This document shows positions 26,050-54,607 of a stretch of DNA of 64,000 nt, piece after piece. The position numbers were made by a program, and so were the translations under genes. The notes under the pieces are model-generated. The model saw only the letters and a program-made list of their open reading frames with translations. It searched no databases and was not told the DNA's origin. The DNA comes from Asaia sp. W19 (lineage in GTDB: Bacteria; Pseudomonadota; Alphaproteobacteria; Acetobacterales; Acetobacteraceae), in assembly GCF_003994335.1 (NCBI RefSeq), contig NZ_PNQZ01000047.1:1-64000 (forward strand), read 5' to 3'. Position 1 is the stretch's first letter, and every line of letters starts with the position of its first letter.

Positions 26050-28074
26050 ATGCATGTTCTAATCCTCGGTGCGGCTGGAATGCTGGGGCGAAAGCTGACC
26101 GAGAGTTTCATCGGCAGGCCCGATGGTTCATTTCCCGGGCCCTCAATCCTGACCCTCGCCGATGTCACGGCGCCGGAGGTGCCGCTGGGCTTTGCCGGTA
26201 CGGTCAGCTGCGTTGCGGCAGATCTCGCTGCGCCTGAAGCGGCGGCACAGCTCCTCGCCCAGAGGCCTGATATCATCTTTCATCTGGCCGCTGTCGTATC
26301 CGGCGCTGCCGAGACGGATATGGCGCTCGGTTACCGGGTCAATCTCGACGCCTCACGCGCTCTGTTTGAAGCGATCAGGGAGCTTCACGAGCAGGAAGGC
26401 TACAAGCCGCGCCTCGTCTTTGCCTCCTCCATCGGCGTGTTCGGTCGGCCTCTGCCCGATGTCATACCCGACAGCCAGATCCCGACCCCAGAGAGCAGAT
26501 ATGGCGTACAGAAGGCCATGGTCGAATTGCTTCTCACAGACTATTCGCGTCGTGGTATTTTCGATGGCGTTGCGCCGCGTATCCCGACCATTTGCGTGCG
26601 CCCGGGCGCGCCGAACGCCGCGGCGTCGGGATTTTTCTCAACGATCATTCGCGAGCCGCTGATCGGGCGCGAGGCCATTCTTCCGGTGCCACGCGACACG
26701 CGCCACTGGCTCGCCAGCCCGCGCGCCGCTGTCAAGGCACTCCGTCACGCGGCGGAGCTCGACTACGCCTTGATCAGTCCTCGGCCAGTCTTCACACTTC
26801 CTGCCCTGAGCGTCACCGTAGAGGAGCAGATCGAGGCGTTGCGACGCGTCGCTGGCACCAGGGCCGTGTCGCTTATCCGTGAGGTACCGGACGCGTTCGT
26901 TCAGCATTTCGTCTCGTCATGGCCCAAGGCGTTCGACACGCATCGGGCGCTGAGTCTCGGTTTCGAGCCCGATGCGTCGTTCGAGGCGATCATCCGTGCG
27001 CACATTGAAGACGAGCTCGATGGCTGTGTTGACGGGGCGCCTCTTTCCTCGGCCAGCACGCCTGGCTCTGCCAGCATGAGCAGGGTCTGGGCATCGGCCC
27101 ACGACAACGCGCCGCTCGCGCGGCATATCGATAAAAGGTCGAATGCCATGCCCTGGACTGCGAAGACCTGGCCGATTGCGGCCGCGATGATCCAGTATCC
27201 CCCTCTGCTTCCAGATGGGACTTCCGTGCAGGACCAGAGCGCAGAAGGCTGGGCCAGGACGCTCCTGGATGTAAGTCGTGCGGGGTTCACCGAGCTGGAT
27301 CCGACTGATTGCTGGTTGCGCCTGGCGGATCTCTCAAAGCCCAGACAGCGCGACTTTCTGTCGGTCTGCGGCGATCTCGGGCTGTCCATCCCGGCCATCT
27401 CCACCTCGCGTCGCTCGGTGATCGATCCGGATCCCGACAAGGCCGATGCCGCGTTGTCCTATATCCATAGGGTGATCGATACGGCCGCAGAGATTGGTGC
27501 GCGCGAAATCGCAGTCGGTTTTGCGACGGCGCTGACCGAGCCTCAGCGCAAGGCGCTCTGGTTCTGGACCGCGCAGGGCCATCAGGACCCCGATGATCCG
27601 GAGGTCTGGAAAAAGGCCGTGACGCGCATTCGTGAGCTCGCGGATCATGCCCAGAGCGTTGGGGTCACCCTGTCGCTCGAGATGTACGAGGACACCTATC
27701 TGGGTTCGGCGGATTCCAGCGTGAAGTTCGTACGCGACGTCGATCATCCCGCCTGCGGTATCAATGCCGATATCGGCAATCTTGTCCGGTTGCACCGCCC
27801 CATGGAGCGCTGGCAGGACATGATGAAGAAGCTCGCTCCCTATCTTCGATATTGGCACGTCAAAAATTATTTGCGCACGGAGGACGAGACGACAGGTATG
27901 ATCGTCACGGCGCCTGCCCCGATGGAGCAGGGCGTGATCAGCTATCGCGCCGCGATCAACATGGCGCTCGAGCACGGCTATGCCAGCCCCTTCCTGGTCG
28001 AGCATTATGGTGGTGACGGGCTTAGTGTTGCCGCGCAGAACCGGGATTATATCCGGAGGATACTGCCGCAATGA
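26050..28074 (+). CDS. Fusion: DenD-like sugar-acid dehydrogenase + xylose-isomerase-like TIM barrel
   Basis: One 674-residue frame holds two enzymes. Residues 1 to about 325 are an extended SDR close to D-erythronate dehydrogenase (DenD): NAD motif GAAGMLGRKL, FASSIGVFG, YGVQKAM (YxxxK) and RDTRHWLASPRAAV. A Ser/Ala-rich linker (about 326-366) leads to a TIM barrel (367-674) with likely metal ligands in SLEMYED, GINADIGN, YWHVKNY and LVEHYGGD, the E-D-H-E pattern of the xylose-isomerase-like superfamily (EryC, OtnI and OiaC belong there). An in-frame ATG at 27148 with AAAGG ahead could also start the second domain alone. Its stop overlaps the next gene by ATGA. The pair suggests oxidation of a sugar acid followed by isomerisation or decarboxylation. 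Confidence 0.8.
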   Translation: MHVLILGAAGMLGRKLTESFIGRPDGSFPGPSILTLADVTAPEVPLGFAGTVSCVAADLAAPEAAAQLLAQRPDIIFHLAAVVSGAAETDMALGYRVNLDASRALFEAIRELHEQEGYKPRLVFASSIGVFGRPLPDVIPDSQIPTPESRYGVQKAMVELLLTDYSRRGIFDGVAPRIPTICVRPGAPNAAASGFFSTIIREPLIGREAILPVPRDTRHWLASPRAAVKALRHAAELDYALISPRPVFTLPALSVTVEEQIEALRRVAGTRAVSLIREVPDAFVQHFVSSWPKAFDTHRALSLGFEPDASFEAIIRAHIEDELDGCVDGAPLSSASTPGSASMSRVWASAHDNAPLARHIDKRSNAMPWTAKTWPIAAAMIQYPPLLPDGTSVQDQSAEGWARTLLDVSRAGFTELDPTDCWLRLADLSKPRQRDFLSVCGDLGLSIPAISTSRRSVIDPDPDKADAALSYIHRVIDTAAEIGAREIAVGFATALTEPQRKALWFWTAQGHQDPDDPEVWKKAVTRIRELADHAQSVGVTLSLEMYEDTYLGSADSSVKFVRDVDHPACGINADIGNLVRLHRPMERWQDMMKKLAPYLRYWHVKNYLRTEDETTGMIVTAPAPMEQGVISYRAAINMALEHGYASPFLVEHYGGDGLSVAAQNRDYIRRILPQ

Positions 28075-29069
28075 CCCTTACGCGTTATACGAATACACGG
28101 GTCGGTTCCCGCTTCGATGCGAAGATCGCCCGAATGCGTGCCGGATCGGATACGACGAGCGACTTCATCCTGGCCGATGCCAAGGATGCCGATATGGCGG
28201 GTGGTCTCTCGGCGCTGGGCACGAACAGGGCCACCGGATTACCCTGCACCCTGTCGGAATTCGACGCTGCCATCACCGAGATCGTGAAGCAGGACGTCGT
28301 CGACATTCTGCTGGCATCTGTCTCGACCCTGGGGCGCCTCGACAAGACAGGTATTTTCGCGAACAGCCCGATACGTCGCGCCGTTCGTCTCAATGATACC
28401 TCCGATCTATGGCGCATTCGGGGCGCGGATTACGGGCGTCAGCCATCCATTCCCTTCCGCACGGCCCGGCTCGATCTTCTGCCGGAGCCGTTTGGTCTTT
28501 ATTCCATGACCTTCAGCGGTGATGCGCGAGAAGATGCGGAGAGCCTGTCGCGCTATCGCGACTTCAGGGCCGAGGCGCAGGCTGCGGGCGTTGCCCATTT
28601 TCTGGAGGTCTTCAACCCCGTTCATCCCCTGCTCGACCAGGACGATCACGGCGCGTTTCTCAATGATATGGTGAGCCGCACCCTTGCCGGAATGCATGAG
28701 AGCGAGCGCCCTGTCTTCCTCAAGCTGGCCTTTAACGGAGCAAGGGTGCTCGAGGCTTTTTGCCGCTACGACCGGACCTTGATCGTCGGGATCATGGGCG
28801 GTGGCAGCGGAACAACGCGAGATTGCCTCGAACTGCTTCATCAGGCGCAACAGAGCGGGGCACGCGCCGCGCTTTTCGGGCGCAAGATCCTGGATGCGGA
28901 GCATCCGCCCTCCATGGTGGCCATGATGCGTGCCGTGGTTGAGCGACGCCTGACCCCTGTCGAGGGGGTCAAGATCTATCACGAGGAGATCCTGGCGCGT
29001 GGTCTGTCTCCCTTGAGACCCATCGAGGCCGATCTGCAGGTCACCGAGCCCACTCTTCAACTGGCCTGA
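28071..29069 (+). CDS. Conserved protein resembling class I aldolase TIM barrels, function unassigned
   Basis: This 332-residue soluble protein is one I cannot name. It opens with RFDAKIARMRAG and FILADAKDADMAGG. The middle has FGLYSMTFSGD and FLEVFNPV. A possible Schiff-base lysine sits at about 218 (PVFLKLAFNGA), followed by a glycine-rich strand-loop (VGIMGGGSGTT, 240-248) and AALFGRKI. This order recalls DhnA/LacD-type class I aldolases, where the Lys lies on strand 6 and phosphate loops on strands 7 and 8. It is translationally coupled to the fusion gene upstream and 28 bp before the kinase, so it very likely acts on the same carbon chain. Aldolase activity is inference. Confidence 0.6.
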   Translation: MTLTRYTNTRVGSRFDAKIARMRAGSDTTSDFILADAKDADMAGGLSALGTNRATGLPCTLSEFDAAITEIVKQDVVDILLASVSTLGRLDKTGIFANSPIRRAVRLNDTSDLWRIRGADYGRQPSIPFRTARLDLLPEPFGLYSMTFSGDAREDAESLSRYRDFRAEAQAAGVAHFLEVFNPVHPLLDQDDHGAFLNDMVSRTLAGMHESERPVFLKLAFNGARVLEAFCRYDRTLIVGIMGGGSGTTRDCLELLHQAQQSGARAALFGRKILDAEHPPSMVAMMRAVVERRLTPVEGVKIYHEEILARGLSPLRPIEADLQVTEPTLQLA

Positions 29070-29097
29070 GCGGCCCCACAAGGCGGATTACGATAAT

Positions 29098-30813: not shown

Positions 30814-30923
30814 GGGATCTCAGGCTGAGAGGCTGATGAAGAGCTGAAGGACGTCAGGGCCGATATCGGGGCTTGTACGCGCGATAGGGCCCGGTGTGTT
30901 CCCCGGCAGAAAGGGAGATCGTC

Positions 30924-31862: not shown

Positions 31863-31940
31863 CGCCCCCCCCGTTTTATAGGGTTGCCCGCGGCATAGGC
31901 AGCGCGTTCGACCAGCCTTCGCCTCAATAAAGGAACGACC

Positions 31941-37940: not shown

Positions 37941-39662
37941 TTACTTGACGGCCATGGCGGCAAGCTCCTCGCCGATTACGCGGGCACTGAGCGCCATGGA
38001 GATGGCGCCGGCATCCGGATGACCCTTGCTTTTCTCGCCATGGGTACGTGCCCGCCCCAGACGGGGAAGCAGGTCCTTGGTCGCCTCCGCGGCTTCCGTG
38101 GAAGCCTGTGCCGCCTCAACCCAAGCCTTCGCGACAGTCAACCCCTGCCGTAATCCTGAATCGAATCCCTCAACGAGCGGCGCGAGCGCGTCCATCAACG
38201 TCTTGTCGCCCGGCTTTGCCTTGCCGAGCGCCGTGATCTTGTCCATCGCCCGTCTCAAGCCGAGGGAAAGACCCTGCGCGTCCGGGACTGCGGAGTCATC
38301 GAAAGCCGTGCTGAAGGCGAAAAGTCCCGCCCCCCAGAGTGCTCCTGAGGTTCCCCCCGCCCGGTCGGCCCACGCATCGGCCGCCGCGGCGAGCACGGTA
38401 GCCGGGCCAGCGCCGGCCTCCACGGCAGCACGAGCGGCTCTGGCAGCCGCCGTCGCACCGCGTGCCATGCCCTGACCGTGATCCCCGTCACCAGCCTGGG
38501 CGTCGATATGGCCGAGTTCGGGTTCCGCTTTGGTCAGGGCCGCAGACAGTTTGATCATCATGCCTGCCACGCAGCGCCCGCCCTGGCGACCGGCCTCCGT
38601 CAGGGATTTCATATAGGCGACGGGTGCTTCGGCGAGAATCGGCAGAGAGTTGCGATACGCCCCGCGCATCTCACCCCGACTGATCGCCGCGCTCTCGACT
38701 GGCGCCCGCCAGAGGCGTTCGAGTTCGTCATCAAGCCAGGTCATGGTAAGCGAGCAGCCCGCCATATCAAGGCTTGTGATATACTCACCGGCCAGGGGAG
38801 CGATGACTGTGTAGCCCGCATTCTCGAGCCTGGGGATGATCGCTTCCCACAGCACGAAAAGCTCCTCGTATTTCGTGCTGCCGAGGCCGTTGAGCAGGGC
38901 CGTTATGCGCGAACCGGCATTGGCCGGGGCTTCCTTGAGAAGGCGGTCGCAAAGAATGGCTGCCAGTTCATCCGGACGGAGCAGGTCGAGTTCGTCGATA
39001 CCCTGCTCGCCATGGACGCCGAGGCCAAGAGCGAGCCTGCCCTGAGGAACATGAAAGAGCTTTTCCTTCTCACCCGGAAGCGTGCAGCCATCGAAGGCGA
39101 CGCCGAAGGAACGCGTTTGGGCGTTGGCGCGCTTCCCGATGATCTCCACCTCATCGAGGCTCAGCCCGGCCTCAGCCGCAGCACCGATAATCTTGAAGAC
39201 CGGGAGGTCCCCTGCGGTGCCGCGACGCCGGCTTTCCTCATGCGCGGGGGCGCTTGCGATATCGTCGGTCGTGGCGATCATGCGCGTATCGATGCCCTCG
39301 GCGCGCAGGCGCTCAGCGGCAATGCTGAAATTTAGTACGTCGCCCGCATAATTGCCATAGCCGAGAATCACGCCGCCACCGAGATGAGCCTCTCGGGCGA
39401 TACGCAGAATAGCCTGGGTGGAGGGCGAGGCGAACACGTCCCCGGCCACTGCCGCATCGGCAAAGCCCGCGCCGACATACCCATTGAAAGCCGGGAAATG
39501 GCCCGATCCGCCCCCCACCACCAGCGTCACCTTGCCCTGCTTGCCGGGAGTGGCGCGCAGGACGCCGCCGCGTACGGGCTGGACGATATCGCTATAAACA
39601 CTTGCGAAGCCCCGCAGGGCGGAGGTCGCAAAATTCTCGGCGTCGCCACAGATCTTGGTCAT
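37941..39662 (-). CDS. DhaK-DhaL fused kinase, probable L-erythrulose kinase, copy 2
   Basis: The 573-residue kinase has the same architecture as the gene at 29098. The DhaK half has GGGSGHFPAFNGYVG and the catalytic-His motif LGLGVHGEQGIDELD; the DhaL half has IDAQAGDGDHGQGMARG. It is the last gene of the isomerase-regulator-ABC operon. Because that operon encodes EryH/LerI-like and EryI/DerI-like isomerases, the natural substrate is probably L-erythrulose, giving L-erythrulose-1-phosphate (the reaction of LerK). Dihydroxyacetone remains possible. Evidence is family plus context. Confidence 0.82.
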   Translation of the reverse strand: MTKICGDAENFATSALRGFASVYSDIVQPVRGGVLRATPGKQGKVTLVVGGGSGHFPAFNGYVGAGFADAAVAGDVFASPSTQAILRIAREAHLGGGVILGYGNYAGDVLNFSIAAERLRAEGIDTRMIATTDDIASAPAHEESRRRGTAGDLPVFKIIGAAAEAGLSLDEVEIIGKRANAQTRSFGVAFDGCTLPGEKEKLFHVPQGRLALGLGVHGEQGIDELDLLRPDELAAILCDRLLKEAPANAGSRITALLNGLGSTKYEELFVLWEAIIPRLENAGYTVIAPLAGEYITSLDMAGCSLTMTWLDDELERLWRAPVESAAISRGEMRGAYRNSLPILAEAPVAYMKSLTEAGRQGGRCVAGMMIKLSAALTKAEPELGHIDAQAGDGDHGQGMARGATAAARAARAAVEAGAGPATVLAAAADAWADRAGGTSGALWGAGLFAFSTAFDDSAVPDAQGLSLGLRRAMDKITALGKAKPGDKTLMDALAPLVEGFDSGLRQGLTVAKAWVEAAQASTEAAEATKDLLPRLGRARTHGEKSKGHPDAGAISMALSARVIGEELAAMAVK

Positions 39663-39716
39663 GGGGTATCCTTGGTAAAGTCAGACGGTCCTGAGTGATT
39701 GGAGCGGGAAGCGCGT

Positions 39717-40727
39717 TCAGGCTTCCCGGTTGAAATAGCGTCGCGCAATGGCATCGAAGGAGATGGCGGCCACCACGATCCCGCCGCTGACGATCGACTG
39801 CCAGTAAGGCGAGATGCCGAAGAGCACGATCACGTTTTCGATGATCCCGATGATTACCGCGCCCAGTACCGCGCCGAACGGGCTGCCCAGCCCTCCAGTG
39901 GTGGCCACCCCGCCGATCACGGCGGCCGCGATAGGGGCCAGCACCCAGGTATCGCCGATGGAGGGCTGGGCTGTGCCAAGACGCGCGACCATAACGATAC
40001 CGGCAAGAGCCGAAAGGAAGCCCGCCGTGGCAAAGGCGCAGACGCGGATGGCGTCCACCCTGATGCCCAGCATGCGCGCTGCGGCATTATTGCTGCCAAT
40101 GGCGTAGACGTAGCGACCGAGCGGTGTGCGGATCATGACGAAGGACACGATGGCGAGGCAGACCAGCAGGATCAGGAAGGGCACCGGCAGGCCAGCCATC
40201 ATGCCTCGGCCCAGGAAGCCGATATCGCTGGGGATGCCGGTAATGGCCACGCCCTTGGTGAGCACGAGATTGGCGCCCCCATAAACACCGGCCATGCCGA
40301 TGGTGAGTACGAGCGAATGAAGGCGCAGACGTGTGATCAGCAGACCGTTGAGCAAGCCGCACCCTGTGCCCAACGCGAGGCAGAGCATGAGGGAGAGCCA
40401 GGGATTGAGCCCGGCCTGAACCATGAGGAGCCCGCCAGCCACGCCTGCCAGTCCACCTATGGCACCGACCGAGAGGTCGAGTTCGCCAAGGATCATCAGA
40501 ATGGCCTGACCGATGGTCACCAGCCCGACAAAGGCCAGGGAGCGTGCGATGATCTTCATGTTGAACGCGGTCAGGAAATTAGCCGAGAGCGCGCTGGACA
40601 GGACGAAGATGACCACGAGAGCGATCACGACACCGCAAAGCGGGTTGGCGGCCAGAGCCTTGAGCCTCTGGACCGGGTTCGGAGAGGAGGAAACGGAAGC
40701 GGCGTCGACAGAACGATCATGCGACAT
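39717..40727 (-). CDS. ABC sugar transporter permease (RbsC-like)
   Basis: The permease has about 336 residues and 8-10 hydrophobic segments, of the ribose/xylose (CUT2) type. Family motifs are GLVTIGQAILMILGELDLSVGAIGGLAG and LGSPFGAVLGAVIIGIIENVIVLFG. I chose ATG 40727 (MSHDRSVDAAS), which overlaps the end of the ATPase gene by 11 bases; a start 16 codons earlier is less likely. With the ATPase and binding protein it makes a complete importer. Confidence 0.9.
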   Translation of the reverse strand: MSHDRSVDAASVSSSPNPVQRLKALAANPLCGVVIALVVIFVLSSALSANFLTAFNMKIIARSLAFVGLVTIGQAILMILGELDLSVGAIGGLAGVAGGLLMVQAGLNPWLSLMLCLALGTGCGLLNGLLITRLRLHSLVLTIGMAGVYGGANLVLTKGVAITGIPSDIGFLGRGMMAGLPVPFLILLVCLAIVSFVMIRTPLGRYVYAIGSNNAAARMLGIRVDAIRVCAFATAGFLSALAGIVMVARLGTAQPSIGDTWVLAPIAAAVIGGVATTGGLGSPFGAVLGAVIIGIIENVIVLFGISPYWQSIVSGGIVVAAISFDAIARRYFNREA

Positions 40728-42222
40728 GTGTGGTCTCCGGAGAGCCGATAATGGAGGCGACCAGCGTACTGACATCTGTCTTGTCGTGGTCGAAGGAGCC
40801 GTTGATCCGGCCGGAATAAAGCGTGATGATTCGTGTCGCGCAGCGCTGAAGCTCGCTCATCTCGGACGATACGAGAATGATCCCCACCCCTTCCTCCGCC
40901 AGACGCTGCATGATGCGATAGATCTGGAACTTGGTACCGATATCGATCCCCTTGGTAGGTTCGTCGAAAATGAGCAGCCGGGGTTTGCGGGCCATGGCCC
41001 GTCCTATGATGGCTTTCTGCTGATTGCCACCGGAGAGGAACATGATCTTTTTCGATGGGGAGGACGTCCGCACATCGAATTGCCGTATGATCTCCGCAAC
41101 GATCGATTTTTCGCGTGCGGGCGAGATCACACCGCCTTTGGCGATATCCCTCGTGACGGCAAGGGCAATGTTCTCGCGCACGCTCAGCATCGGAAAAATC
41201 CCGTGATGCTTGCGCTCTTCCGAGAGGTAGACCATGCCTGCCTGAACGGCCTTGTCAGGACGGTTGGGCGGGATGCGTTTACCATCCAGAGTGATGGTCC
41301 CGCCGCTGAACTTGCGGAAGCCGAACATGGCCTGCATGATTTCCGAACGCCCTGCCCCGACGAGCCCGGCAAAACCGAGGATTTCGCCGCGCCTGAGTGT
41401 GAAGGAGATATCTTCGAAACCGGGCCCTGAAAGATTCTCGACCTTCAATATCGTCTCGTCGCTGCGCGCCGAGGGGGATGACTGAAACTGCTCATCCAGC
41501 TTGACCGAGCTGCCTGACATCAGGCGTATCAGCTCGCTCTCGGTCATGCCCTCCATGGGAAAACTGCCGACACTACGGCCGTTGCGCAGAACTGTGACCG
41601 TGTCACCCAGCGCGAAGATCTCTTCCATCTTGTGAGAGACGAAGACGATGGCGATCTCCTTTGTACGCAGATCTTCGACGATGCGAAACAGCCGCTCCGT
41701 TTCACGAGCGGTGAGAGATGAGGTCGGTTCGTCCAGGATCATGACCCCGAAATCTTCCTGTGTGGCGGCGCGGGCAATCTGCAGAAGCTGCTGATCGGGT
41801 ACGCTGATTTCCGCCACTTTCTGATCGGGGCGCGCCTGAATGCCGAAACGGGCGATATAGGAAGCGGCCTTTTCCTCCATCGCCTTTTCAGAGACCGTGA
41901 TTCTGCCGAAGCCCGAACGGGCGAACGGCATGAACATGTTCTCGGCGACCGTGAGATAAGGAAACAGGTTCAGTTCCTGCGGTACGTAGGCGACACGCCG
42001 GAACAGCCTGGGATCATGCAGCGCATCGGCATCGTCGATGACGAGCGCGCCCTCATCGGGGCGAACAAGGCCCGAAAGAGTCTTGATCAGGGTAGATTTT
42101 CCCGCCCCGTTTTCCCCGGCAAGGATATGGACCTTGCCGGGTTCGAGGGTCAGGTCGATGTGATCGAGGGCGACGACACCTGGATAGGCTTTTCGTATAC
42201 CCGTCGCCTTGAGTAGGACCAT
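40717..42222 (-). CDS. ABC sugar transporter ATP-binding protein (RbsA-like, two ATPase domains)
   Basis: The 501-residue protein has two ATPase domains. The first has Walker A AGENGAGKSTL and Walker B MILDEPTSSL. The second has LSGGNQQKAIIGRAM and Walker B LIFDEPTKGID; its Walker A is altered (GLVGAGRSEI), as is normal in this family. It powers import of a sugar or polyol with the permease and the binding protein around it. The locus suggests erythrulose, erythritol or a related tetritol as cargo. Confidence 0.93.
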   Translation of the reverse strand: MVLLKATGIRKAYPGVVALDHIDLTLEPGKVHILAGENGAGKSTLIKTLSGLVRPDEGALVIDDADALHDPRLFRRVAYVPQELNLFPYLTVAENMFMPFARSGFGRITVSEKAMEEKAASYIARFGIQARPDQKVAEISVPDQQLLQIARAATQEDFGVMILDEPTSSLTARETERLFRIVEDLRTKEIAIVFVSHKMEEIFALGDTVTVLRNGRSVGSFPMEGMTESELIRLMSGSSVKLDEQFQSSPSARSDETILKVENLSGPGFEDISFTLRRGEILGFAGLVGAGRSEIMQAMFGFRKFSGGTITLDGKRIPPNRPDKAVQAGMVYLSEERKHHGIFPMLSVRENIALAVTRDIAKGGVISPAREKSIVAEIIRQFDVRTSSPSKKIMFLSGGNQQKAIIGRAMARKPRLLIFDEPTKGIDIGTKFQIYRIMQRLAEEGVGIILVSSEMSELQRCATRIITLYSGRINGSFDHDKTDVSTLVASIIGSPETTHVA

Positions 42223-42253
42223 GGCCCTGCCTCCCTCCTGAACGCGAAAGCGA

Positions 42254-43177
42254 TTATTTGGAGAGCGATGCTTTTGTGATGATGTCGATACCCGTATCGA
42301 TGTTCTTGGGTGTCTGCTGCCCCATGGCTTTCTGCCAGGCGGCGATCACGGCCCAGTATCCCTGCATTTCGGGACGGCTGGACGCCGAAGAATCCACTAC
42401 GCTGTCCTTGATGAGCTGGAGCATATCGGTCAGGTTGTCGAGCCCGACCTCCTGGACCTTACCTACCTTCTCGCTCTCCCGAATGGCCTGGCCGATGCCC
42501 ACCGGTCCGGCAGCATCACAAGCAACCCAACCTGCAAGGTTGGGGTGAGCCTGCATGATGGCCGAGGCCTGCTTCTGGGCGGTCTCGATGCTGTCATTAT
42601 CGATGCCGGTCGCCACAACCTTGATATCGGGATATTTGGTGAAGACCTTGAGCTCGCACCGGGCGCGCAAAGCATGATTGGGTGCTGTGGGCACGCCCAT
42701 CATGATGGCGACCTCACCTTTGTGATTGATGAGTTTCGCCAGGCGCTCCGCTGCAAGGCTGCCCTGCTCGCAGAAATCGGCACCGACTGCCGTGATGTCC
42801 ATACCCTCAGGCGGGAGGGAGTCGAACACCGTCATCGGGATCTTCTCGTCGACCGCTTCCTGCATGGTGGAGCGATTGCCCTTCTCGTCCAGAAGGTCGA
42901 GGATCAGGCCATCGGGATGTGTCGCGATGGCGCGTTCGATGATGTCGTTCTGGGTCGAAACATCGGCCGTCTGGGGGGCACGATATTCGACCGTGATGGT
43001 GCGACCTGTCGCCTTGCTGAGCAGCGCAGCGGCAGACTGGGCCCCGTTATTGGCCTTGTCGAACCAAGGATGAACAGCTTTCGGTATCATGACGAACCGC
43101 ATCGGCGCGTTATCTGCCGCATGGGCAGCAAGAGGCGCGAGGAAAAGAGCAGCGGTCGCGAGCAGAGCTTTTTTCAT
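42254..43177 (-). CDS. ABC sugar transporter substrate-binding protein (RbsB-like)
   Basis: The 307-residue periplasmic protein has a classic signal peptide (MKKALLATAALFLAPLAAHA, cut after AHA). The fold has repeated Rossmann-like halves: RFVMIPKAVHPWFDKANNGA, then ATHPDGLILDLLD and AGWVACDAAGPVGIGQAI. It probably captures the sugar for the ABC importer encoded 31 bp downstream. The ligand cannot be read from sequence; by context a tetrose or tetritol. Confidence 0.9.
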   Translation of the reverse strand: MKKALLATAALFLAPLAAHAADNAPMRFVMIPKAVHPWFDKANNGAQSAAALLSKATGRTITVEYRAPQTADVSTQNDIIERAIATHPDGLILDLLDEKGNRSTMQEAVDEKIPMTVFDSLPPEGMDITAVGADFCEQGSLAAERLAKLINHKGEVAIMMGVPTAPNHALRARCELKVFTKYPDIKVVATGIDNDSIETAQKQASAIMQAHPNLAGWVACDAAGPVGIGQAIRESEKVGKVQEVGLDNLTDMLQLIKDSVVDSSASSRPEMQGYWAVIAAWQKAMGQQTPKNIDTGIDIITKASLSK

Positions 43178-43208
43178 GAAATCAGACCTTTATGGTCGTG
43201 TTAATCCA

Positions 43209-43676
43209 TTACTTGCAGGAATTCGGCGAGTATTTTCGGTCGAGAGCGTCGATACCATCAACGTTTTTCTTCGATGCGCTTGCCGGATCGAATTCCTTGG
43301 CAAGGAAGGAGTCCACGATGGTCTTGGCAAGCTCTGCCCCGACCACACGCGCGCCGAGTGTGATGATATGGGCATTGTTCGAGAGAGCAGCCCGTTCGGC
43401 CGAATAGGCATCATGAGCCTGCGCCGCACGAATGCCGGGGATCTTGTTGGCCGAGATCGCGACACCGATGCCCGTGCCGCAGCACAGGATACCGCGCTCG
43501 TATTCGCCCGAAAGAATGGCGTGACCCACGCGCTCGCTCAGTTCGGAATAAAGCTCGCTCTTGGCATCCACGGGGCGTGACAGATCAACCGCGTCCACCC
43601 CCTTCGACTTGAGATGTGCGACGATCTGCTGGGCCAGACCTTCACCGGCGCTATCGCCACCTACTGCAATTTTCAT
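43209..43676 (-). CDS. RpiB/LacAB family isomerase, probable D-erythrulose-4-phosphate isomerase (EryI/DerI)
   Basis: The protein has 155 residues. The catalytic Cys lies in the RpiB motif CCGTGIGVAISANK, with HDAYSAERAALSNNAHIITLG further on. The N-terminus reads GGDSAGEG instead of the GSDHAG usual in true ribose-5-phosphate isomerase B, a change I associate with the EryI/DerI branch. These enzymes convert D-erythrulose-4-phosphate to D-erythrose-4-phosphate, an entry to the pentose phosphate pathway. Start and stop are coupled to the DeoR gene (ATGA overlap). Confidence 0.85.
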   Translation of the reverse strand: MKIAVGGDSAGEGLAQQIVAHLKSKGVDAVDLSRPVDAKSELYSELSERVGHAILSGEYERGILCCGTGIGVAISANKIPGIRAAQAHDAYSAERAALSNNAHIITLGARVVGAELAKTIVDSFLAKEFDPASASKKNVDGIDALDRKYSPNSCK

Positions 43677-44527
43677 GGTCTTGTTCCTTTTGTGATGTGT
43701 TCAGGGGTGTCGGCATGCGCAGCGGTCAGCCCATCGTCCATCTGGGCGATATGCAGGTTGATTCCCGCGTCGAGCATGCGGTTCTTCTGACTGTCGGACA
43801 CACCTGAATCGGTAATCACGACGTCAAAATCGGAAAGGCTCGCGAGACGGTTCAGCGCCGTCACATCGAATTTCTGGCTATCGATCATCAGGATACGACG
43901 GTCGACGATCTCCATCAGCGCCATCTTGCATTTGACGATTTCCTGCTCCTGATGGAACGCACCAAGGTCGCGCACGGCGGAAACCGACATGAACAGCGTA
44001 TTCGCCCGAAGCGATTTGGTGCCCTGCTCGCACAGAATGCCAAGAAAGGCGTCAAAGCGCGGGTGGTATTTACCCCCCAGCGAAATGAGACTGATGTCGC
44101 GTGCGCCAGCGATCTGCGTGGCGATACCCATACTATTGGTCAGCACGGTGAGCGGCATGCCCGAGGGCAGGTTTTCCGAGAGCACACGCGAGGTCGTTGA
44201 ATCATCGAGGGCAATGATATCGCCTGCCTTGATGAAGCTAGACGCAACACGGGCTATCGCCTGCTTCTCGCGTGAGGCACGTCGCATGCGATGGACGACG
44301 CTCGTTTCCATTACGCCGCTGGCCAGCATGGTCACGCCACCATGCACCTTGCGCACAAGTCCCTGTTCGGACAGGGCGTGAAGGTCGCGGTGAATGGTCA
44401 TGCGGCTCGTCGAGAACCGATCGACCAGCTCCTCGATCTGTGCGCCGCCATTCTCGAGAACGTAGTCCAGGATCTCCCGACGACGCGCCGAGACGGCCTT
44501 GCTCTCGACGCCAGTCGCGCCGCTCAT
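43673..44527 (-). CDS. DeoR family transcriptional regulator, copy 1
   Basis: The 284-residue repressor has a DeoR helix-turn-helix (IEELVDRFSTSRMTIHRDLHALSEQGLVRKVHGG) and a sugar-phosphate-sensing C-domain (DIIALDDSTTSR, LTVLTNSMGIATQI, LISLGGKYHPRFDAFLG). It is encoded inside the isomerase-ABC-kinase operon, overlapping both neighbours by ATGA. It probably represses this operon in the absence of a phosphorylated tetrose, with the inverted repeat at 45333-45361 as the likely site. Confidence 0.9.
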   Translation of the reverse strand: MSGATGVESKAVSARRREILDYVLENGGAQIEELVDRFSTSRMTIHRDLHALSEQGLVRKVHGGVTMLASGVMETSVVHRMRRASREKQAIARVASSFIKAGDIIALDDSTTSRVLSENLPSGMPLTVLTNSMGIATQIAGARDISLISLGGKYHPRFDAFLGILCEQGTKSLRANTLFMSVSAVRDLGAFHQEQEIVKCKMALMEIVDRRILMIDSQKFDVTALNRLASLSDFDVVITDSGVSDSQKNRMLDAGINLHIAQMDDGLTAAHADTPEHITKGTRP

Positions 44528-45288
44528 GACACCACCGACCGGATGATCGCTTCGAGGCCCGAAGGGTCCCAGGCCGAGCGCCCGATGAAGACGCCGTCCA
44601 CATTATCGAGGGCCGTATAACGTGCGGCGTTATCCAGCGACACGCTGCCGCCATAGAGCACGGGCACGCGCTTAGCCGCCTCGGCGCCAACCAGTTCTGC
44701 AAGGACGCTGCGCAGCCGGGTATGAGCCAGCGCCACGAAATCGGGTTCGGCTGCCCTGCCCTTCGCGCCGATGGCCCAGACAGGCTCGTAAGCCAGAAGG
44801 ACCGTGCCGATCTCGTCCGCGCTCAGGCCATGGAGCGCCATCTTGGTCTGACGTGCGAGCGTCTCATGGGTGACGCCAAATTCGTATTCCTTAGCGCTGT
44901 CACCGATGCAGATCAGCGGGCGCAGCTTGTGGCGTATCGCGGAGCGCACTTTGAGATTGACCGTGATATCGCTTTCACCGAAATGTTCGCGCCGCTCGGA
45001 ATGGCCCAGCTCGATCATATCTGCGCCGCATTCGCGCACCATGTGCGGTGAGATCTCGCCAGTCCAGGCGCCGTCATCTTCCCAGTGCATGTTCTGCGCA
45101 CCAACATGCCAACGCGTACCTGACAATGTGCCCGCAACTGCTTCGAGAGAGGTAAAGGGCGGGATCACGAACGGCGTGATTTCTTCGGGCACCGTCATGG
45201 AGGCGATTTGGCCGACCGCATCGCGCGCCGCAGCCGGACCCTTGTTCATCTTCCAGCTCGTTCCGATCCAGAGCGGTTTTCTGGGCAT
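44524..45288 (-). CDS. eryH: Triosephosphate-isomerase-like L-erythrulose-1-phosphate isomerase (EryH/LerI)
   Basis: The TIM-barrel enzyme has about 254 residues. The catalytic His (ELGHSERREHFGE) and Glu (AYEPVWAIG) of triosephosphate isomerase are kept. The N-terminus reads WIGTSWKMNKG, where housekeeping TpiA has GNWKMNG, and VGAQNMHWEDDGAWTGEIS follows. Both stretches match my recollection of Brucella EryH (TpiA2). That enzyme converts L-erythrulose-1-phosphate (L-3-tetrulose-4-phosphate) to D-erythrulose-4-phosphate. ATG 45288 has GGAGAGAGAACAGG upstream; an earlier in-frame start at 45321 is unlikely. First gene of the operon. Confidence 0.87.
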   Translation of the reverse strand: MPRKPLWIGTSWKMNKGPAAARDAVGQIASMTVPEEITPFVIPPFTSLEAVAGTLSGTRWHVGAQNMHWEDDGAWTGEISPHMVRECGADMIELGHSERREHFGESDITVNLKVRSAIRHKLRPLICIGDSAKEYEFGVTHETLARQTKMALHGLSADEIGTVLLAYEPVWAIGAKGRAAEPDFVALAHTRLRSVLAELVGAEAAKRVPVLYGGSVSLDNAARYTALDNVDGVFIGRSAWDPSGLEAIIRSVVS

Positions 45289-45777
45289 CCTGTTCTCTCT
45301 CCGTATCACAGCTGCGAACAATGTAACGTGCTGATGTTAGGATATGGATTTTCCTAACATCGTAGAAGAGAAAATATCAGAATAACCGTTCACGTTGATA
45401 TGATTTACAGCCACGCGACGTCATGAAACGACATAAAGCGGCGTGTTTTCATCGATTTGCGTCTTCGGTCACTCTGTTATGAGTGCCTCGCCCACGATGT
45501 GATCCTGATGTGCCGAAACATCTGAGTTGCTTGAAATCCGTGCATCTCGCGGTTCCGCTTATCGAGATACGATGAACCCGTCGATCGCGCAGACCGTTTC
45601 CGTCAGCCGCTGCCTCTGTTGCCAAAAGCTGGGACCGTCTCCAGGCGTGCCTCGGCTGCAATGCCCCGTCCCGCGCCTGGTTTGCCTTGGGATTGGGGGC
45701 AAGAGAAGACATGCCGGCGCCGGGACATTCCGCCCTGCCAGCGGTGAGGCATGCGCGGCATGGGGCGTCGCCCGCGC
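45289..45777. promoter_or_regulatory. Regulatory region between the two erythritol operons
   Basis: These 489 bases follow the dehydrogenase gene and precede the isomerase operon on the minus strand. The isomerase-proximal part (45305-45480) is AT-rich and holds a 10-bp inverted repeat (45333-45361). The rest is GC-rich and non-coding, with no convincing hairpin terminator after the dehydrogenase. Open frames on both strands here lack coding character. Confidence 0.6.
45333..45361. promoter_or_regulatory. 10-bp inverted repeat, candidate DeoR operator
   Basis: GATGTTAGGA and TCCTAACATC form a perfect inverted repeat with a 9-nt spacer, 45 bases upstream of the isomerase start. The position and size suit binding of a regulator, most simply the DeoR protein encoded by the second gene of the operon. 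Confidence 0.6.
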
Positions 45778-47469
45778 TCAGGCAGCTTGCGCTTTGGCGG
45801 GATTTTCAGGCAGCCCGTGTTCCTTTATCGCGCGTGCCCAGTTCTGCTCGATCTGTTTTTCCGTCGTTTCGGTGCTCCAGTCGAGCGCTTCGGCCATGAC
45901 GCCGCAGATCTCGACGATCACTGCGTGAGACAGGCAGCCGCTCAACGCGATGGGCGTACGCCTGAATAGGAGATCCCCCGCATCGCGCACCAGTTCCTCG
46001 GTCGTGACATACAGGATTTCATTGCGCGTGTAGTCCCGGAGCGAGCGTAGAGCCGTGTCAGGCGAGCGGGCGCAATAAGCCGCAACCCGCTCCGCCGTCG
46101 TGCCATAGCGCTCGAAGAGCGCGGTCGCCCGCTCGAGATCGACGCTGTGTCGGCTTGCCAATGATCTGAGCCAGGAAGGCCGCATGGAGGCCGACGGATA
46201 GTCGCGACCGCCACCCAGCGCACGCTCACGCGACGACACCCGACGTTTCCTGTGCAGGAGAGCCAGGCTTTTATCTGCCACTTCCTCGGCCAACCCGCGA
46301 AATGTGGTCCATTTCCCCCCCACGAGGGACAGAACGGGCGTAGTGCCGGTGTAGTCGGTATGGATAATGTGATCCCGGCTGATGGCGCCGGGGTCATCCG
46401 TATTGGAGGCCGGAAGCGGCCTCACCCCGCAATAGCGATAAAGCACCTGCCCAGCCGAAAAACTGAATCCCGGAAAGAGATGGGCGAGCATCTCGATCAT
46501 ATAGCGCTCTTCGTCCTCCGAGCAGTGCGCCTGATCAGGGTCCTGCACCGGAATATCCGTGGAGCCGACCAGCACATGGCCCATGAAGGGATAGGCAAGG
46601 CAAATGCGCCCGTCAGGTGTGCCGAAATACACCATCTGACCATTGAGCTCCTGGTAGAGTTCGGGATGATCGAGGACGAGATGCGATCCTTTCGTACCGC
46701 CGATGTAGCGTGTCGACAGGCCGATATCCCGATTGACCTGATCGATCCATGCCCCTCCGGCATTGACGATAAGATCGGTCGTGACGCTCTGACGGGTCTG
46801 GTTTTTGAGGTCGCTCAGGGTCAGCCTGCCATCGGTGAACCCCTCCACACGCGTATAGGTCTTGACGGCGCAGCCCAGGTTCAGACTCAGCGCATCCTCG
46901 ACGCATTCAAAGCCGAGGCGCTCTGGCTGACTGATAGCGGCGTCGTAATATCGCCCGGTCGCGATGACCCTGGGGGCCATATGAGGCCAGTTCCGCCGCA
47001 TTCTCCGTCCGAGCGACAGCTTGTGGCGCGGCATGAGACGAGCGCGGCGCCCGAGGAAATCATAGATCTGCATGCCGATTTCGGTCACGAGGACACCGCG
47101 ATCGGCCATCTTGCTCTTGCGCCCCATGAATCTGAGAAGCGACGGGACGATCCCGCCGAACCAGGAATGGATGGGGATGATCGTCGGAAGCGGCCGCACG
47201 AGATGCGGGGCGTTGCGCAGGAGCAGGTTGCGCTCGAGCGTTGACTGCGCAACGAGGCGGAACTCCCCCGTCTCCAGATATTTGATGCCGCCGTGGATCA
47301 GGCGTGAGGGCGCTGCAGACGCGCCAGCACAGATATCGCCCCGATCGATGAGAAGGACATTGACTCCCTGCAAGGCCAACTCCCGAAACAGGCCCACACC
47401 GTTGATCCCTGCCCCGATAATGGTGACATCGAAATGGGTTGAGTCGAGTTGCGAGGCGGTGTGGGTCAT
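45778..47469 (-). CDS. eryB: GlpD-like FAD dehydrogenase, probable erythritol-4-phosphate dehydrogenase (EryB)
   Basis: The 563-residue FAD enzyme has FDVTIIGAGINGVGLFRELALQG, DRGDICAGASAAPSRLIHGG and YLETGEFRLV, as in glycerol-3-phosphate dehydrogenase GlpD. The C-terminal domain continues with NEILYVTTEELVRDAGDLLFRRT. It lies 12 bp after an EryA-like kinase gene, in the locus that holds the EryH and EryI homologues, so L-erythritol-4-phosphate is the likelier substrate; glycerol-3-phosphate cannot be ruled out. It is longer than E. coli GlpD (501). Probably membrane-associated, passing electrons to quinone. Confidence 0.8.
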   Translation of the reverse strand: MTHTASQLDSTHFDVTIIGAGINGVGLFRELALQGVNVLLIDRGDICAGASAAPSRLIHGGIKYLETGEFRLVAQSTLERNLLLRNAPHLVRPLPTIIPIHSWFGGIVPSLLRFMGRKSKMADRGVLVTEIGMQIYDFLGRRARLMPRHKLSLGRRMRRNWPHMAPRVIATGRYYDAAISQPERLGFECVEDALSLNLGCAVKTYTRVEGFTDGRLTLSDLKNQTRQSVTTDLIVNAGGAWIDQVNRDIGLSTRYIGGTKGSHLVLDHPELYQELNGQMVYFGTPDGRICLAYPFMGHVLVGSTDIPVQDPDQAHCSEDEERYMIEMLAHLFPGFSFSAGQVLYRYCGVRPLPASNTDDPGAISRDHIIHTDYTGTTPVLSLVGGKWTTFRGLAEEVADKSLALLHRKRRVSSRERALGGGRDYPSASMRPSWLRSLASRHSVDLERATALFERYGTTAERVAAYCARSPDTALRSLRDYTRNEILYVTTEELVRDAGDLLFRRTPIALSGCLSHAVIVEICGVMAEALDWSTETTEKQIEQNWARAIKEHGLPENPAKAQAA

Positions 47470-47481
47470 GATGGTTCCCGA

Positions 47482-49092
47482 TCAGGATGGGAGAGAGGCG
47501 GCCTCTGGGCCAGTGGGCGTGACGGCTGGAGCGTGGGGTGCCGGGAGGAAGGAGGTGTCGTCGCTCTGATCACTGTGCAGTGAAGGCCAGAAAGGCTCGA
47601 GGACGCGCGCGATAGCGGTGTAGCGGGCATAGATCACATCGAAATATGCGGAGAGTTCAGCATCGGGTTCGAAGCAGCGCGGCTGGACACTCTGCGCCTT
47701 CACTGCGTCCTCGAGTGAGGCGAACATACCGCACGCAACGCCTGCCGTCAGGGCAGCGCCAAGGGCTCCGGCTTCACGAACCGGCGAGGTCGCGACATCG
47801 CGACCGAAGATATTGGCGAAGAGTTGCCCGATCTCGGGGCGCCGGCTGCCCCCGCCGGAGACCCCGATACTATTGACCGCCCCCGTACGCAGCAGATCCT
47901 CGACGTGATGGCGATGATTGAAGATCGTGCCTTCGATCATGGCCTCGAACAGATCGAACCGGTCGTGCCAGGATTGAACGCCCAGGAACGAAGCGGTTGC
48001 TGGCGTCTCGAACGGCGATCCGAAGAGATAAGGATGATAGAGCGGGATCTGACGCGCCATACGACCGGAGCGAAATTTCGCGATAGCGCCGTCGATCAGC
48101 CTCGCGGCTGAATCAGGGTCTTCCGGCGCGACATAGCGGGCCATCCACTCCAGATTGCTCGCGGAAGCCGGAGAAATGGCCATGCAGTTCCAGAGCCCCT
48201 TGCGGAAACCGGACCGGCAGGCCCACTCAGCCCCTGTGACGGGACGATCACGCAATACCTCGTTGATGGAAAAGGTCCCGGCAGTGACGGTCATATCACC
48301 CGGCTGTATCTGACCCAGACCGACGGCCGCAGCGATAACATCATGCAAACCGGCCGAGACGGGCGTCCCTTCGCGCAGGCCTGTCAGGGCAGCGGCCGCG
48401 GCACTGACCGTGCCGGCTCGGTCACAGGAATCGAGCATGACCGGCAAGGCAGGGGCGACGGCCGAAAGCCCGAGCATCTCGAGTATTTCCGAACAATATT
48501 CCTGGCTGAGCAGCCCCGTAAATGCCGTACTTGCTTCAGTACGATCTGTGGCAATCTGCCCGGTCAGACAAAAGCGCAGCCAGTCCTTTGCGAAAAACAC
48601 GGTGCCGATGGCGTCGTAGCGCGCGCGATCATGCTCCCGGAGCCAGGCGAGCAGGGTGGAGGCGGAATAAGGGTAAGGGCGTTGCCCGGCAATCGGCATC
48701 AGCCGGTCGAGCAGACCTTCGCGCTTCCAGAGTTCATGGATGCCGTAGGCCCGGCTGTCGAGCGACATGATGCCGTGCCCCAGCGGATTGGCCTGGCGGT
48801 CAAGCAGGAAAACCCCGTCCCCATGCGCGGTCACCCCGATCCCCGCGATTGCCTCGCCAGGTAGCTGCGCATCGGCAAGTGCGGACCTGATCGTTGCGGC
48901 GACGCCTAGCCAGGTTTCGTGCAGATCGCGCTCCACATGGCGGGGTATATCGGTGATCTGAGCCATACGGGCCTGACCGACCCCAAGGATGCGACCGTCT
49001 GGCGCAAAGATCACAGATTTGGCTGTAGTGGAACCACAATCGATGCCGATCAGACAGCCTTGCTCATCCTGTTCACGCTTGTCAGTACTCAT
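47482..49092 (-). CDS. eryA: FGGY family carbohydrate kinase, probable erythritol kinase (EryA)
   Basis: The 536-residue kinase has an N-terminal FGGY motif (LIGIDCGSTTAKSVIF), the catalytic region GVTAHGDGVFLLD, and the C-terminal signature SIGVSGGGSRRPEIGQLFANI. Members phosphorylate glycerol, xylulose, ribulose or erythritol. Its pairing with a GlpD-like dehydrogenase and the tetrulose-phosphate isomerases points to erythritol. A proline-rich C-terminal tail (SFLPAPHAPAVTPTGPEA) is unusual. The gene is divergent from a DeoR gene. Confidence 0.78.
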   Translation of the reverse strand: MSTDKREQDEQGCLIGIDCGSTTAKSVIFAPDGRILGVGQARMAQITDIPRHVERDLHETWLGVAATIRSALADAQLPGEAIAGIGVTAHGDGVFLLDRQANPLGHGIMSLDSRAYGIHELWKREGLLDRLMPIAGQRPYPYSASTLLAWLREHDRARYDAIGTVFFAKDWLRFCLTGQIATDRTEASTAFTGLLSQEYCSEILEMLGLSAVAPALPVMLDSCDRAGTVSAAAAALTGLREGTPVSAGLHDVIAAAVGLGQIQPGDMTVTAGTFSINEVLRDRPVTGAEWACRSGFRKGLWNCMAISPASASNLEWMARYVAPEDPDSAARLIDGAIAKFRSGRMARQIPLYHPYLFGSPFETPATASFLGVQSWHDRFDLFEAMIEGTIFNHRHHVEDLLRTGAVNSIGVSGGGSRRPEIGQLFANIFGRDVATSPVREAGALGAALTAGVACGMFASLEDAVKAQSVQPRCFEPDAELSAYFDVIYARYTAIARVLEPFWPSLHSDQSDDTSFLPAPHAPAVTPTGPEAASLPS

Positions 49093-49372
49093 GATGATCC
49101 CATCGCCTGAAGGAAAAGGGCGTCCGGAGTCTGTTCTAAGCGGAAAGAAAATGTGTCGAAAATCACATTGTAGTGCGATCTATGTGACAAATCATGCGAG
49201 TCATCTGTAAGCACGTTGGCTACGCGGCATTCGACAAGACTGCGCCACAACTCTGTGAGATTTGAGGATCAGCTTGTCGCTATGAGATATTTGTGATATT
49301 TTTGTTATGTAATCTTTTGGTCTGCTTGGCCCATCATAGCGAAGCATTTTTTGTCAAAGGCAGTCTTCGACC
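49093..49372. promoter_or_regulatory. Divergent promoter region between eryA-like and DeoR genes
   Basis: An AT-rich 280-base gap sits between two divergent genes. ATGTG/CACAT words recur at 49151, 49164 and 49182; TCACAT-N13-ATGTGA (49163-49187) is an inverted repeat. A TTTGTGATATTTTTGTTATG stretch near 49290-49310 looks promoter-like. It likely holds both promoters and the operators of the DeoR protein. Confidence 0.55.
49151..49187. promoter_or_regulatory. Repeated ATGTG/CACAT words, candidate operator
   Basis: ATGTG-N8-CACAT and the partly overlapping TCACAT-N13-ATGTGA form two dyads in the divergent promoter. They could bind the divergently encoded DeoR-family regulator. Confidence 0.4.
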
Positions 49373-50188
49373 ATGAGTGACGACCTCACCTCGCCACCCC
49401 CGCTTGATGGTTATCCCGGGATCAAACGTCAGAACCTGAAATCGCGTCAGCAACAGATCCTCGACCTGCTCTTTGAGCAAGGGAATGCGAGCATCGAGTT
49501 TCTGGCCGAGCATTTCGATGTAAGCCGCATGACCATCCACCGTGATGCCCATGCGCTTGCCAGCCAGGGGCTGATCGACAAAATTCATGGCGGGATCACC
49601 CTCAAGAACCGTGCTCGCACGGAGAAGAATGTCGCCTATCGGCAGCATCGTGCGGCCAATCTGAAAAAGGCCATCATCCAGCGCGCTGTCTCCATGATCG
49701 AGCCGGGACAGGTCATTATTCTCGATGATTCGACGACTGTCGCGGAGATGCTGCCGCTGCTGCCGGCACGCGCACCTCTGACCGTGATTACCAATGCCGT
49801 TGGAGTGGTGCAGGCTCTCGCCCCCTTCCCCGGTATCAAGATCATCTGTCTCGGTGGCGACTACAGCAATTCGCGCAATGCGTTTTTCGGACTCGTCTGC
49901 GAGCAGGCTGCCCGTTCGCTTCGCGGGAACATCATGTTCATGTCCACCTCGGTGATCTCGGGGGACACGGCGTTCCAGAACGATCAGGATGTGGTGAAGG
50001 TCAAGCGCGCCCTCATGGCGATCGCAGATCGCTGCGTCCTGCTTGTCGACAGTACGAAATTCCGCCAGGGCGGGCTACATCGCCTTACATCGCTGCAGGA
50101 CTTCGATCGTATCCTGACCGATAGCCAGATCAAGCCGGTCGTCGTTTCGGAACTCGACGCCTCGGGCATCACGGTCGAGGTTTGCTGA
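49373..50188 (+). CDS. DeoR family transcriptional regulator, copy 2
   Basis: The 271-residue protein has a helix-turn-helix (IEFLAEHFDVSRMTIHRDAHALASQGLIDKIHGG) and a DeoR C-domain (VIILDDSTTVAEMLPLL, LTVITNAVGVVQAL, IICLGGDYSNSRNAFFG). It is clearly a paralogue of the regulator at 43673. It reads away from the kinase-dehydrogenase operon and probably controls that operon. Convergent with the alcohol dehydrogenase gene downstream. Confidence 0.9.
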   Translation: MSDDLTSPPPLDGYPGIKRQNLKSRQQQILDLLFEQGNASIEFLAEHFDVSRMTIHRDAHALASQGLIDKIHGGITLKNRARTEKNVAYRQHRAANLKKAIIQRAVSMIEPGQVIILDDSTTVAEMLPLLPARAPLTVITNAVGVVQALAPFPGIKIICLGGDYSNSRNAFFGLVCEQAARSLRGNIMFMSTSVISGDTAFQNDQDVVKVKRALMAIADRCVLLVDSTKFRQGGLHRLTSLQDFDRILTDSQIKPVVVSELDASGITVEVC

Positions 50189-54605: not shown

Positions 54606-54607
54606 GA

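Follow-up and report, generated by a model that had tools for sequence, protein, structure and literature searches.

A putative L-erythrulose catabolic module and a neighbouring FGGY-GlpD gene pair distinct from EryA-EryB in Asaia sp. W19

The stretch of Asaia sp. W19 DNA analysed here (positions 1 to 64,000 of contig NZ_PNQZ01000047.1, 64,000 nucleotides in all; "the window" below) carries at 37941-50188 a cluster of sugar catabolism genes that a sequence-only reading had taken for an erythritol/L-erythrulose locus that needs no EryC. All of the open reading frames named in that reading are present and intact (table 1), and their families, Dak1+Dak2, BPD_transp_2, ABC_tran, Peripla_BP_4, LacAB_rpiB, DeoR, TIM, DAO+DAO_C, FGGY_N/C and a second DeoR, are all found above cut-off. 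We divide the cluster into module A (37941-45288), which holds the TIM, DeoR1 and RpiB genes, the CUT2 importer and the fused DhaK-DhaL kinase, and module B (45778-49092), the FGGY2-GlpD2 pair. In module A there are 4-base overlaps between the TIM and DeoR1 genes and between DeoR1 and RpiB, the two ABC genes overlap as well, and the remaining gaps are of 31 (RpiB to binding protein), 31 (binding protein to ABC genes) and 54 bases (ABC genes to kinase); since its genes overlap or stand 31–54 bases apart, TIM through kinase is probably one operon, as had been proposed (we use the ATG at 45288 as the TIM start; the open reading frame list begins at the TTG at 45321). The FGGY2 and GlpD2 genes, 12 bases apart, form a second unit about 0.5 kb upstream of TIM, facing the divergent DeoR2 gene. 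The core of the inverted repeat just before TIM would be expected 0.02 times per window (with at most three mismatches), but no locus from another species contains the exact core, which weakens its reading as a conserved operator.

Table 1. Features of the window discussed in the text
Feature	Position	Strand	Basis
Fused DhaK-DhaL kinase, candidate L-erythrulose 1-kinase (LerK-like)	37941..39662	-	PRK14479
CUT2 ABC importer permease	39717..40775	-	PF02653
CUT2 ABC importer ATPase	40717..42222	-	PF00005, two stretches
Periplasmic sugar-binding protein of CUT2 importer	42254..43177	-	PF13407
RpiB-family protein, candidate D-erythrulose-4-phosphate isomerase (EryI/DerI-like)	43209..43676	-	NF051858
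DeoR1 regulator	43673..44527	-	PF00455/PF08220; 37% to DeoR of rhizobial tpiB-rpiB operon
TIM-family protein, candidate L-erythrulose-1-phosphate isomerase (EryH/LerI-like)	44524..45288	-	11ef match
Perfect 10-base inverted repeat GATGTTAGGA-N9-TCCTAACATC just before TIM, possible operator	45333..45361	.	
GlpD2, GlpD-like FAD dehydrogenase, not EryB	45778..47469	-	PF01266+PF16901
FGGY2 kinase, not EryA	47482..49092	-	PF00370/PF02782
DeoR2, divergent regulator	49373..50188	+	PF00455/PF08220
LsrF-like protein with class-I-aldolase fold; its paralogue in relatives is encoded between GlpD and TIM	28071..29069	+	

Compared with solved structures, the TIM-family protein of module A scores 232 bits to 11ef ("L-erythrulose-1-phosphate isomerase") and 181 bits to the best triosephosphate isomerase; its sequence is nearer to that of LerI/EryH than to that of TIM. 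A tree of 61 TIM-family proteins places it with the rhizobial TpiB proteins, away from the canonical TIMs (the long branches L221, L225 and L219 near the base were flagged by the tree program). A canonical TIM is present on another contig of the same genome, and two or three TIM-family genes were found in all 14 of the related genomes searched. The signatures on which the sequence-only reading had been built are literally there: GTSWKMNKG in the TIM-family protein, whose Lys, His (in LGHSERR) and Glu (in YEPVW) are kept, and GGDSAG in the RpiB-family protein, which also keeps the CGTGIG motif; we take these kept residues and the CGTGIG motif to have their usual catalytic roles. The RpiB-family protein, the sole match to that family in the genome, is 58% identical to the RpiB encoded at the ery locus of R. 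johnstonii, and GDSAG near the start is common to most of this ery-locus-type group (10 rows aligned). It scores 115.9 bits on the generic model TIGR01120, far below its score on the NCBI D-erythrulose-4-phosphate isomerase model NF051858 (given below), and its best solved relative is 5ifz (173 bits; the next scores 106).

The residue before WKMN in the TIM-family proteins follows the presence of RpiB closely. An RpiB gene lies within the examined stretch (mostly 3.7 to 21 kb) in 31 of the 33 TIM rows with Ser at this position and in none of the 14 with Asn after GT; the remaining 14 of the 61 rows (six with GN and eight whose motif was missed by the pattern) include two with RpiB. On a tree made with the residue masked, grouping all 14 Asn rows in one clade is rejected (p-AU 0.01, in a test run after a first tree had been seen), and two changes are needed. 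The Asn-bearing paralogues arose twice in Gluconobacter (L027-L038 and L042), each time without an RpiB neighbour in the examined stretch; one group is found with FGGY-GlpD-LsrF, and of the genes looked for only DeoR accompanies the second. This correlation, over two events, suggests that Ser may mark the erythrulose isomerase role, and that Asn, the residue of canonical TIM, would have come back where that role was lost.

The fused DhaK-DhaL kinase gene adjoins the LerI-like and DerI-like genes, the linkage expected of LerK, and its product scores 701 bits on the PRK14479 subfamily (cut-off 492). The periplasmic binding protein is 77–81% identical to its orthologues in Gluconobacter, Komagataeibacter and Novacetimonas and 25% identical to the binding protein of the rhizobial ery locus (EryG type). 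An EryG-type protein (73–77% identical to the rhizobial one) is found instead in five loci of acetic acid bacteria that have EryABC or EryBC (L219, L220 and L248-L250), and one genome (G041) has both kinds of locus on one contig (L226 and L248). Since this binding protein is conserved with the kinase across genera and the Ery loci carry the EryG type, the importer and kinase of module A appear to travel together, apart from erythritol uptake. The hallmark of SldBA is a small membrane gene beside a large pyrroloquinoline quinone (PQQ) dehydrogenase gene of the TIGR03074 type, and an SldBA-like two-gene arrangement of this kind lies elsewhere in the genome (C201:72836-75345), although its large subunit, at 766 bits, misses the single-chain cut-off of 833. 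Acetic acid bacteria are described as converting meso-erythritol to L-erythrulose (PMC9171043). Module A is thus well supported as a LerK-LerI-DerI type of route, equipped with a separate importer, that would lead L-erythrulose to erythrose-4-phosphate, and this part of the sequence-only reading, an importer-kinase-isomerase-isomerase cassette for L-erythrulose, is supported.

The same cannot be said of module B, which had been taken for an EryA-EryB type of entry. FGGY2 shares 28% identity with EryA of R. johnstonii, and GlpD2 likewise 28% with its EryB, but they are 43% and 49% identical to the members of a second, unnamed FGGY-GlpD pair that follows the importer genes of the same R. johnstonii ery locus; orthology with EryA-EryB is therefore rejected. 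The two kinds of pair coexist in L086 and in the acetic acid bacterial locus L219, where the second type is followed directly by EryD-EryA-EryB-EryC-TpiB; in another acetic acid bacterium (L220) a few kilobases, which include the importer, separate the second-type pair from EryB-EryC. Two pairs maintained next to each other should have different functions. The published ery-locus survey tabulates EryA-D, EryG, EryR, TpiB, MptA, LalA and RbtA-C, and its passages on these loci seen here do not mention a second pair (PMC3599248).

The two modules are also separable. Judged by the TIM protein, Asaia krungthepensis (L006, 94%) has the closest genome; other Asaia come next, and then Gluconobacter, Komagataeibacter and Novacetimonas. 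Gene neighbourhoods were compared at 41 loci (L006-L046, the first of 80 kept from 112 relatives found), with a wider survey of 200 genomes of the window's family, taken to be Acetobacteraceae on the strength of the Asaia match. Module A is found without module B adjoining it in L012 and L015, and module B without module A in L027, L031, L035 and L036. Some contigs stop near TIM (L013, for example), so the absence of upstream genes is uninformative for these, and the FGGY matches of L009 and L043 (and in L009 those of GlpD) are in pieces and may be broken there. In 500-base bins the window is 87–96% identical to A. krungthepensis on the DeoR2 side (49.5–53 kb), 69–76% over FGGY-GlpD (45500-49500), mostly 91–97% from TIM to kinase (82% and 87% in the end bins) and 76–84% to the left of the kinase (35–38 kb). 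The FGGY-GlpD divergence would reflect allele exchange or fast divergence. Identity is patchy, and any of these pieces may be the exchanged one; the modules are exchangeable units. In the 200-genome survey GlpD2 was found in 16 genomes (at most six candidates scored per genome at a threshold of 1e-100, so that distant members may be missed) and EryC (threshold E ≤ 1e-20) in five; three have both, and 13 of the 16 GlpD2 genomes lack EryC.

The Asaia sp. W19 genome is among those without EryC. No EryC homologue lies at the locus, as had been noticed, and the absence extends to the genome: R. johnstonii EryC finds no homologue among all 12 PF01261 places (best E 0.6), and the genome has no EryC match in the survey, so an EryC hidden elsewhere is rejected (a PF01261 protein of the wider superfamily that is not EryC-like is encoded in another operon of the window, at about 27271-28056). 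The assembly (3.9 Mb) is in 228 contigs with 8% contamination, a caveat for any absence claim made on this single genome. Its Dak and DenD/isomerase genes are doubled with identical scores on C35/C116 and C49/C157, a sign of redundant contigs. That the locus needs no EryC thus holds as a genomic fact, but the reason proposed for it, that both entries meet at L-erythrulose-1-phosphate, does not. EryA-EryB are said, in work by Barbier in 2014, to yield the D form (L-3-tetrulose-4-phosphate), and since LerI needs the L form an EryA-EryB-like entry would need EryC. In work on the synthetic erythrulose monophosphate (EuMP) cycle, EryC is the D-erythrulose-1-phosphate 3-epimerase and LerI takes the L form, and E. 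coli in which FucA or RhaD supplied D-erythrulose-1-phosphate failed to grow via LerI-DerI when EryC was left out (PMC10733421). For the locus to work without EryC, module B must yield the L form directly, bypass LerI or have another epimerase. GlpD prefers an L-configured carbon next to the phosphate; if GlpD2 keeps this preference, L-threitol would give L-erythrulose-1-phosphate directly, and the meeting point of the sequence-only reading would then fit. FGGY2-GlpD2 stand beside TpiB-RpiB, without EryC or an LsrF-like gene in the examined stretch, in L044, L218 and L222, an arrangement that would fit L-threitol; L221 has both enzyme types too, but its RpiB starts with GCDEAA, not GDSAG.

We therefore regard the locus as two neighbouring catabolic modules, an L-erythrulose route and a kinase-dehydrogenase pair that is not EryA-EryB, and give this reading a probability of about 0.65; we infer the substrates and reaction directions of both modules. 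L-Erythrulose made from erythritol outside the cytoplasm would be imported by module A and phosphorylated by the DhaK-DhaL kinase to L-erythrulose-1-phosphate, which the TIM-family isomerase would turn into D-erythrulose-4-phosphate and the RpiB-family isomerase into D-erythrose-4-phosphate, which would enter the pentose phosphate pathway. Module B would phosphorylate a polyol and then oxidise it to a ketose-1-phosphate. Two options stand out for module B, namely L-threitol, or a tetritol like it, and a polyol whose breakdown ends in aldol cleavage. Our best guess is a tetritol whose oxidation would give L-erythrulose-1-phosphate directly, making EryC dispensable; L-threitol itself is a tentative and somewhat doubtful choice.

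Several observations weigh against this picture. The RpiB-family protein, at 233.3 bits, misses the NF051858 cut-off of 240. The kinase does not reach the cut-off of the glycerone kinase equivalog TIGR02361 (349 bits against 575), but neither do the Dak protein at C197 (358) or the second Dak of the window (340), so its miss is not specific. The nearest solved relatives of the binding protein give no clear ligand for it. The case for L-threitol is a stereochemical analogy with GlpD, and L-threitol is, to our knowledge, not a common natural sugar alcohol. Gluconobacter frateurii has FGGY-GlpD-LsrF-TIM although its genome gives no match to the RpiB family; module B can therefore occur where a D-erythrulose-4-phosphate isomerase is lacking, and its product need not pass through LerI-DerI. 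Finally, in most relatives module B is coupled to an LsrF-like gene, which points to cleavage rather than isomerisation.

This last point underlies the most serious alternative, which is possible though the odds lean against it: the ketose-1-phosphate made by module B would be split by the LsrF-like protein, acting as a class I aldolase, to dihydroxyacetone phosphate (DHAP) and an aldehyde, and the polyol may then be a five- or six-carbon compound unrelated to erythrulose. FGGY-GlpD is present in 26 of the 41 loci, and in 21 of these the LsrF-like gene lies between GlpD and TIM, as it does in G. frateurii; in Shinella (L087) a different gene, annotated lsrF, appears to share an operon with an FGGY-GlpD pair. 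The five FGGY-GlpD loci without it are L006, L007, L009 and L043, all from Asaia, and L044. It is absent between GlpD and TIM in the window too, and no remnant was found in the gap of the window, L006, L007, L009 or L043. The aldolase of the window would be its sole LsrF-like protein (28071-29069), which is 51–54% identical to the operonic copies and, as a point against cleavage, is encoded in a different operon together with a second DhaK-DhaL kinase. This operon (26050-32702, + strand) comprises a DenD/xylose-isomerase-like fusion (350 bits on the D-erythronate dehydrogenase model, cut-off 325), the LsrF-like gene, the second kinase, a lactonase-like gene and an Lra1-type (L-rhamnose-1-dehydrogenase-type) dehydrogenase, and it looks like an aldonate-to-ketose-1-phosphate route. 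Exactly one LsrF-like copy was found in 17 of 20 genomes (our own and 19 reached through the loci); in the 200-genome survey, G028, G105 and G198 each have two full-length copies. In A. bogorensis the operonic copy is present, but the second operon is reduced and lacks the paralogue; its locus L171 (16997-19998) showed no more of that operon than LysR (truncated where the stretch ends), the isomerase part of the fusion and a short-chain dehydrogenase/reductase (SDR). In the 200 genomes an LsrF-like gene accompanies GlpD2 in 10 of 16 and occurs in 12 of the 184 others (13 with one weak match), a co-occurrence with a Fisher p of about 2e-7 to 3e-7 that is not corrected for relatedness. Strict dependence of FGGY-GlpD on the LsrF-like protein is rejected by these same counts, since six GlpD2 genomes, including one with the same operon as the window (G027), lack it and 12 (plus the weak match) have it without GlpD2.

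The fold of the LsrF-like protein agrees with a cleavage role. No Pfam family was found for it, but its AlphaFold model (mean pLDDT 79.8) has the aldolase fold, with LsrF as the best Foldseek match (E 7e-10). In a VIA comparison the model gives Z 18–20 to ADH synthase, LsrF, LacD and archaeal fructose-bisphosphate aldolase at only 9–17% identity, and 990 of 999 chains reach Z ≥ 8, so this measure is not selective; a HMMER profile search relates the protein to LsrF with E 4e-6 over 66 residues. In class I DHAP aldolases the Schiff-base Lys lies where the barrel strand that precedes the GG phosphate loop ends; K218, a possible counterpart about 25 residues before a GG motif, is invariant in 18 LsrF-like sequences. 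Because model and profile both match class I aldolases, an aldolase role is favoured over that of an EryC substitute. A bolder version seems improbable to us: the LsrF-like protein could be a natural erythrulose-1-phosphate aldolase that yields DHAP and formaldehyde, so that one acetic acid bacterial operon would hold the aldolase and both isomerases of the EuMP cycle, run for tetritol breakdown or, reversed, to assimilate formaldehyde; in the species of the window this type of enzyme would have moved to the neighbouring operon.

Module A could also be a dihydroxyacetone (DHA) route, with a DHA importer, an ordinary DHA kinase, a triosephosphate isomerase and a plain ribose-5-phosphate isomerase. 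Acetic acid bacteria do make DHA from glycerol by oxidative fermentation (PMC9171043), and the kinase keeps the DHA-kinase motifs GGGSGH, NYxGD and xHGE. However, it has HFPAF where the canonical-looking Dak of the same genome at C35 retains HEPAH (HEPMH in the E. coli chains), it misses the (unspecific) glycerone kinase cut-off, its two partner isomerases are closest to erythrulose-phosphate isomerases, and a canonical TIM is encoded elsewhere, so we consider this route unlikely. Least likely of all is that module B uses erythritol as EryA-EryB do, with the LsrF-like protein as the epimerase that replaces EryC on D-erythrulose-1-phosphate: the protein does sit at the point of the reaction order where EryC belongs and is missing from the EryC-bearing FGGY2-GlpD2 genomes G067 and G098, but EryC and LsrF occur together in G041 and are both absent from G027, the window has no LsrF at this locus, the fold is one of aldolases, and FGGY2-GlpD2 coexist with true EryA-EryB.

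Among known systems, module A is most readily compared with the LerK-LerI-DerI tetritol pathway reportedly described in Mycobacterium smegmatis by Huang in 2015. That pathway likewise has no EryC; Asaia adds a dedicated CUT2 importer and the FGGY2-GlpD2 pair, and its periplasmic PQQ oxidation would replace the cytoplasmic tetritol dehydrogenases of M. smegmatis. The rhizobial/Brucella ery locus (EryA-EryB-EryC-EryH-EryI; PMC3599248; R. johnstonii pRL12) shares the DeoR-TIM-RpiB set, and pRL12 the second FGGY-GlpD pair as well, but the window locus lacks orthologues of EryA, EryB, EryC and EryG and has another importer and an extra Dak kinase. The lack of EryC from an ery-type locus has precedent, since the polyol loci of Bradyrhizobium and of Acidiphilium, a relative of the acetic acid bacteria, are described as such; these keep EryA-EryB-EryD with LalA-RbtABC (adonitol/L-arabitol) and have no TpiB, whereas the window has TpiB and RpiB and no EryA-EryB (PMC3599248). 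The EuMP cycle in E. coli combines LerI and DerI with an erythrulose-1-phosphate-forming aldolase, but it is engineered, from FucA or RhaD with EryC, whereas acetic acid bacteria have a candidate aldolase of another family in a natural operon (PMC10733421). Literature searches gave no paper on apiose and erythrulose together, nothing relevant on threitol and FGGY among the matches listed, and, by title and abstract start, none on this locus among the matches listed for Asaia and erythritol. Beyond the locus, three genes at 51459-57180 (- strand) resemble, by eye from the open reading frame list, a heavy-metal resistance-nodulation-division (RND) efflux system (a 1048-amino-acid pump, a 397-amino-acid fusion protein and a 460-amino-acid outer-membrane protein).

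These findings mean that rhizobial and acetic acid bacterial ery-type loci hold two kinase-dehydrogenase routes, only one of which is explained. The LsrF-like protein makes testable a question raised in the Discussion of PMC10733421, namely whether an erythrulose-1-phosphate aldolase and LerI/DerI-type isomerases co-occur in nature; if true, the erythrulose-1-phosphate aldolase reading would answer it. Module A, for its part, is a ready candidate for an L-erythrulose importer and kinase in bacteria that produce L-erythrulose themselves.

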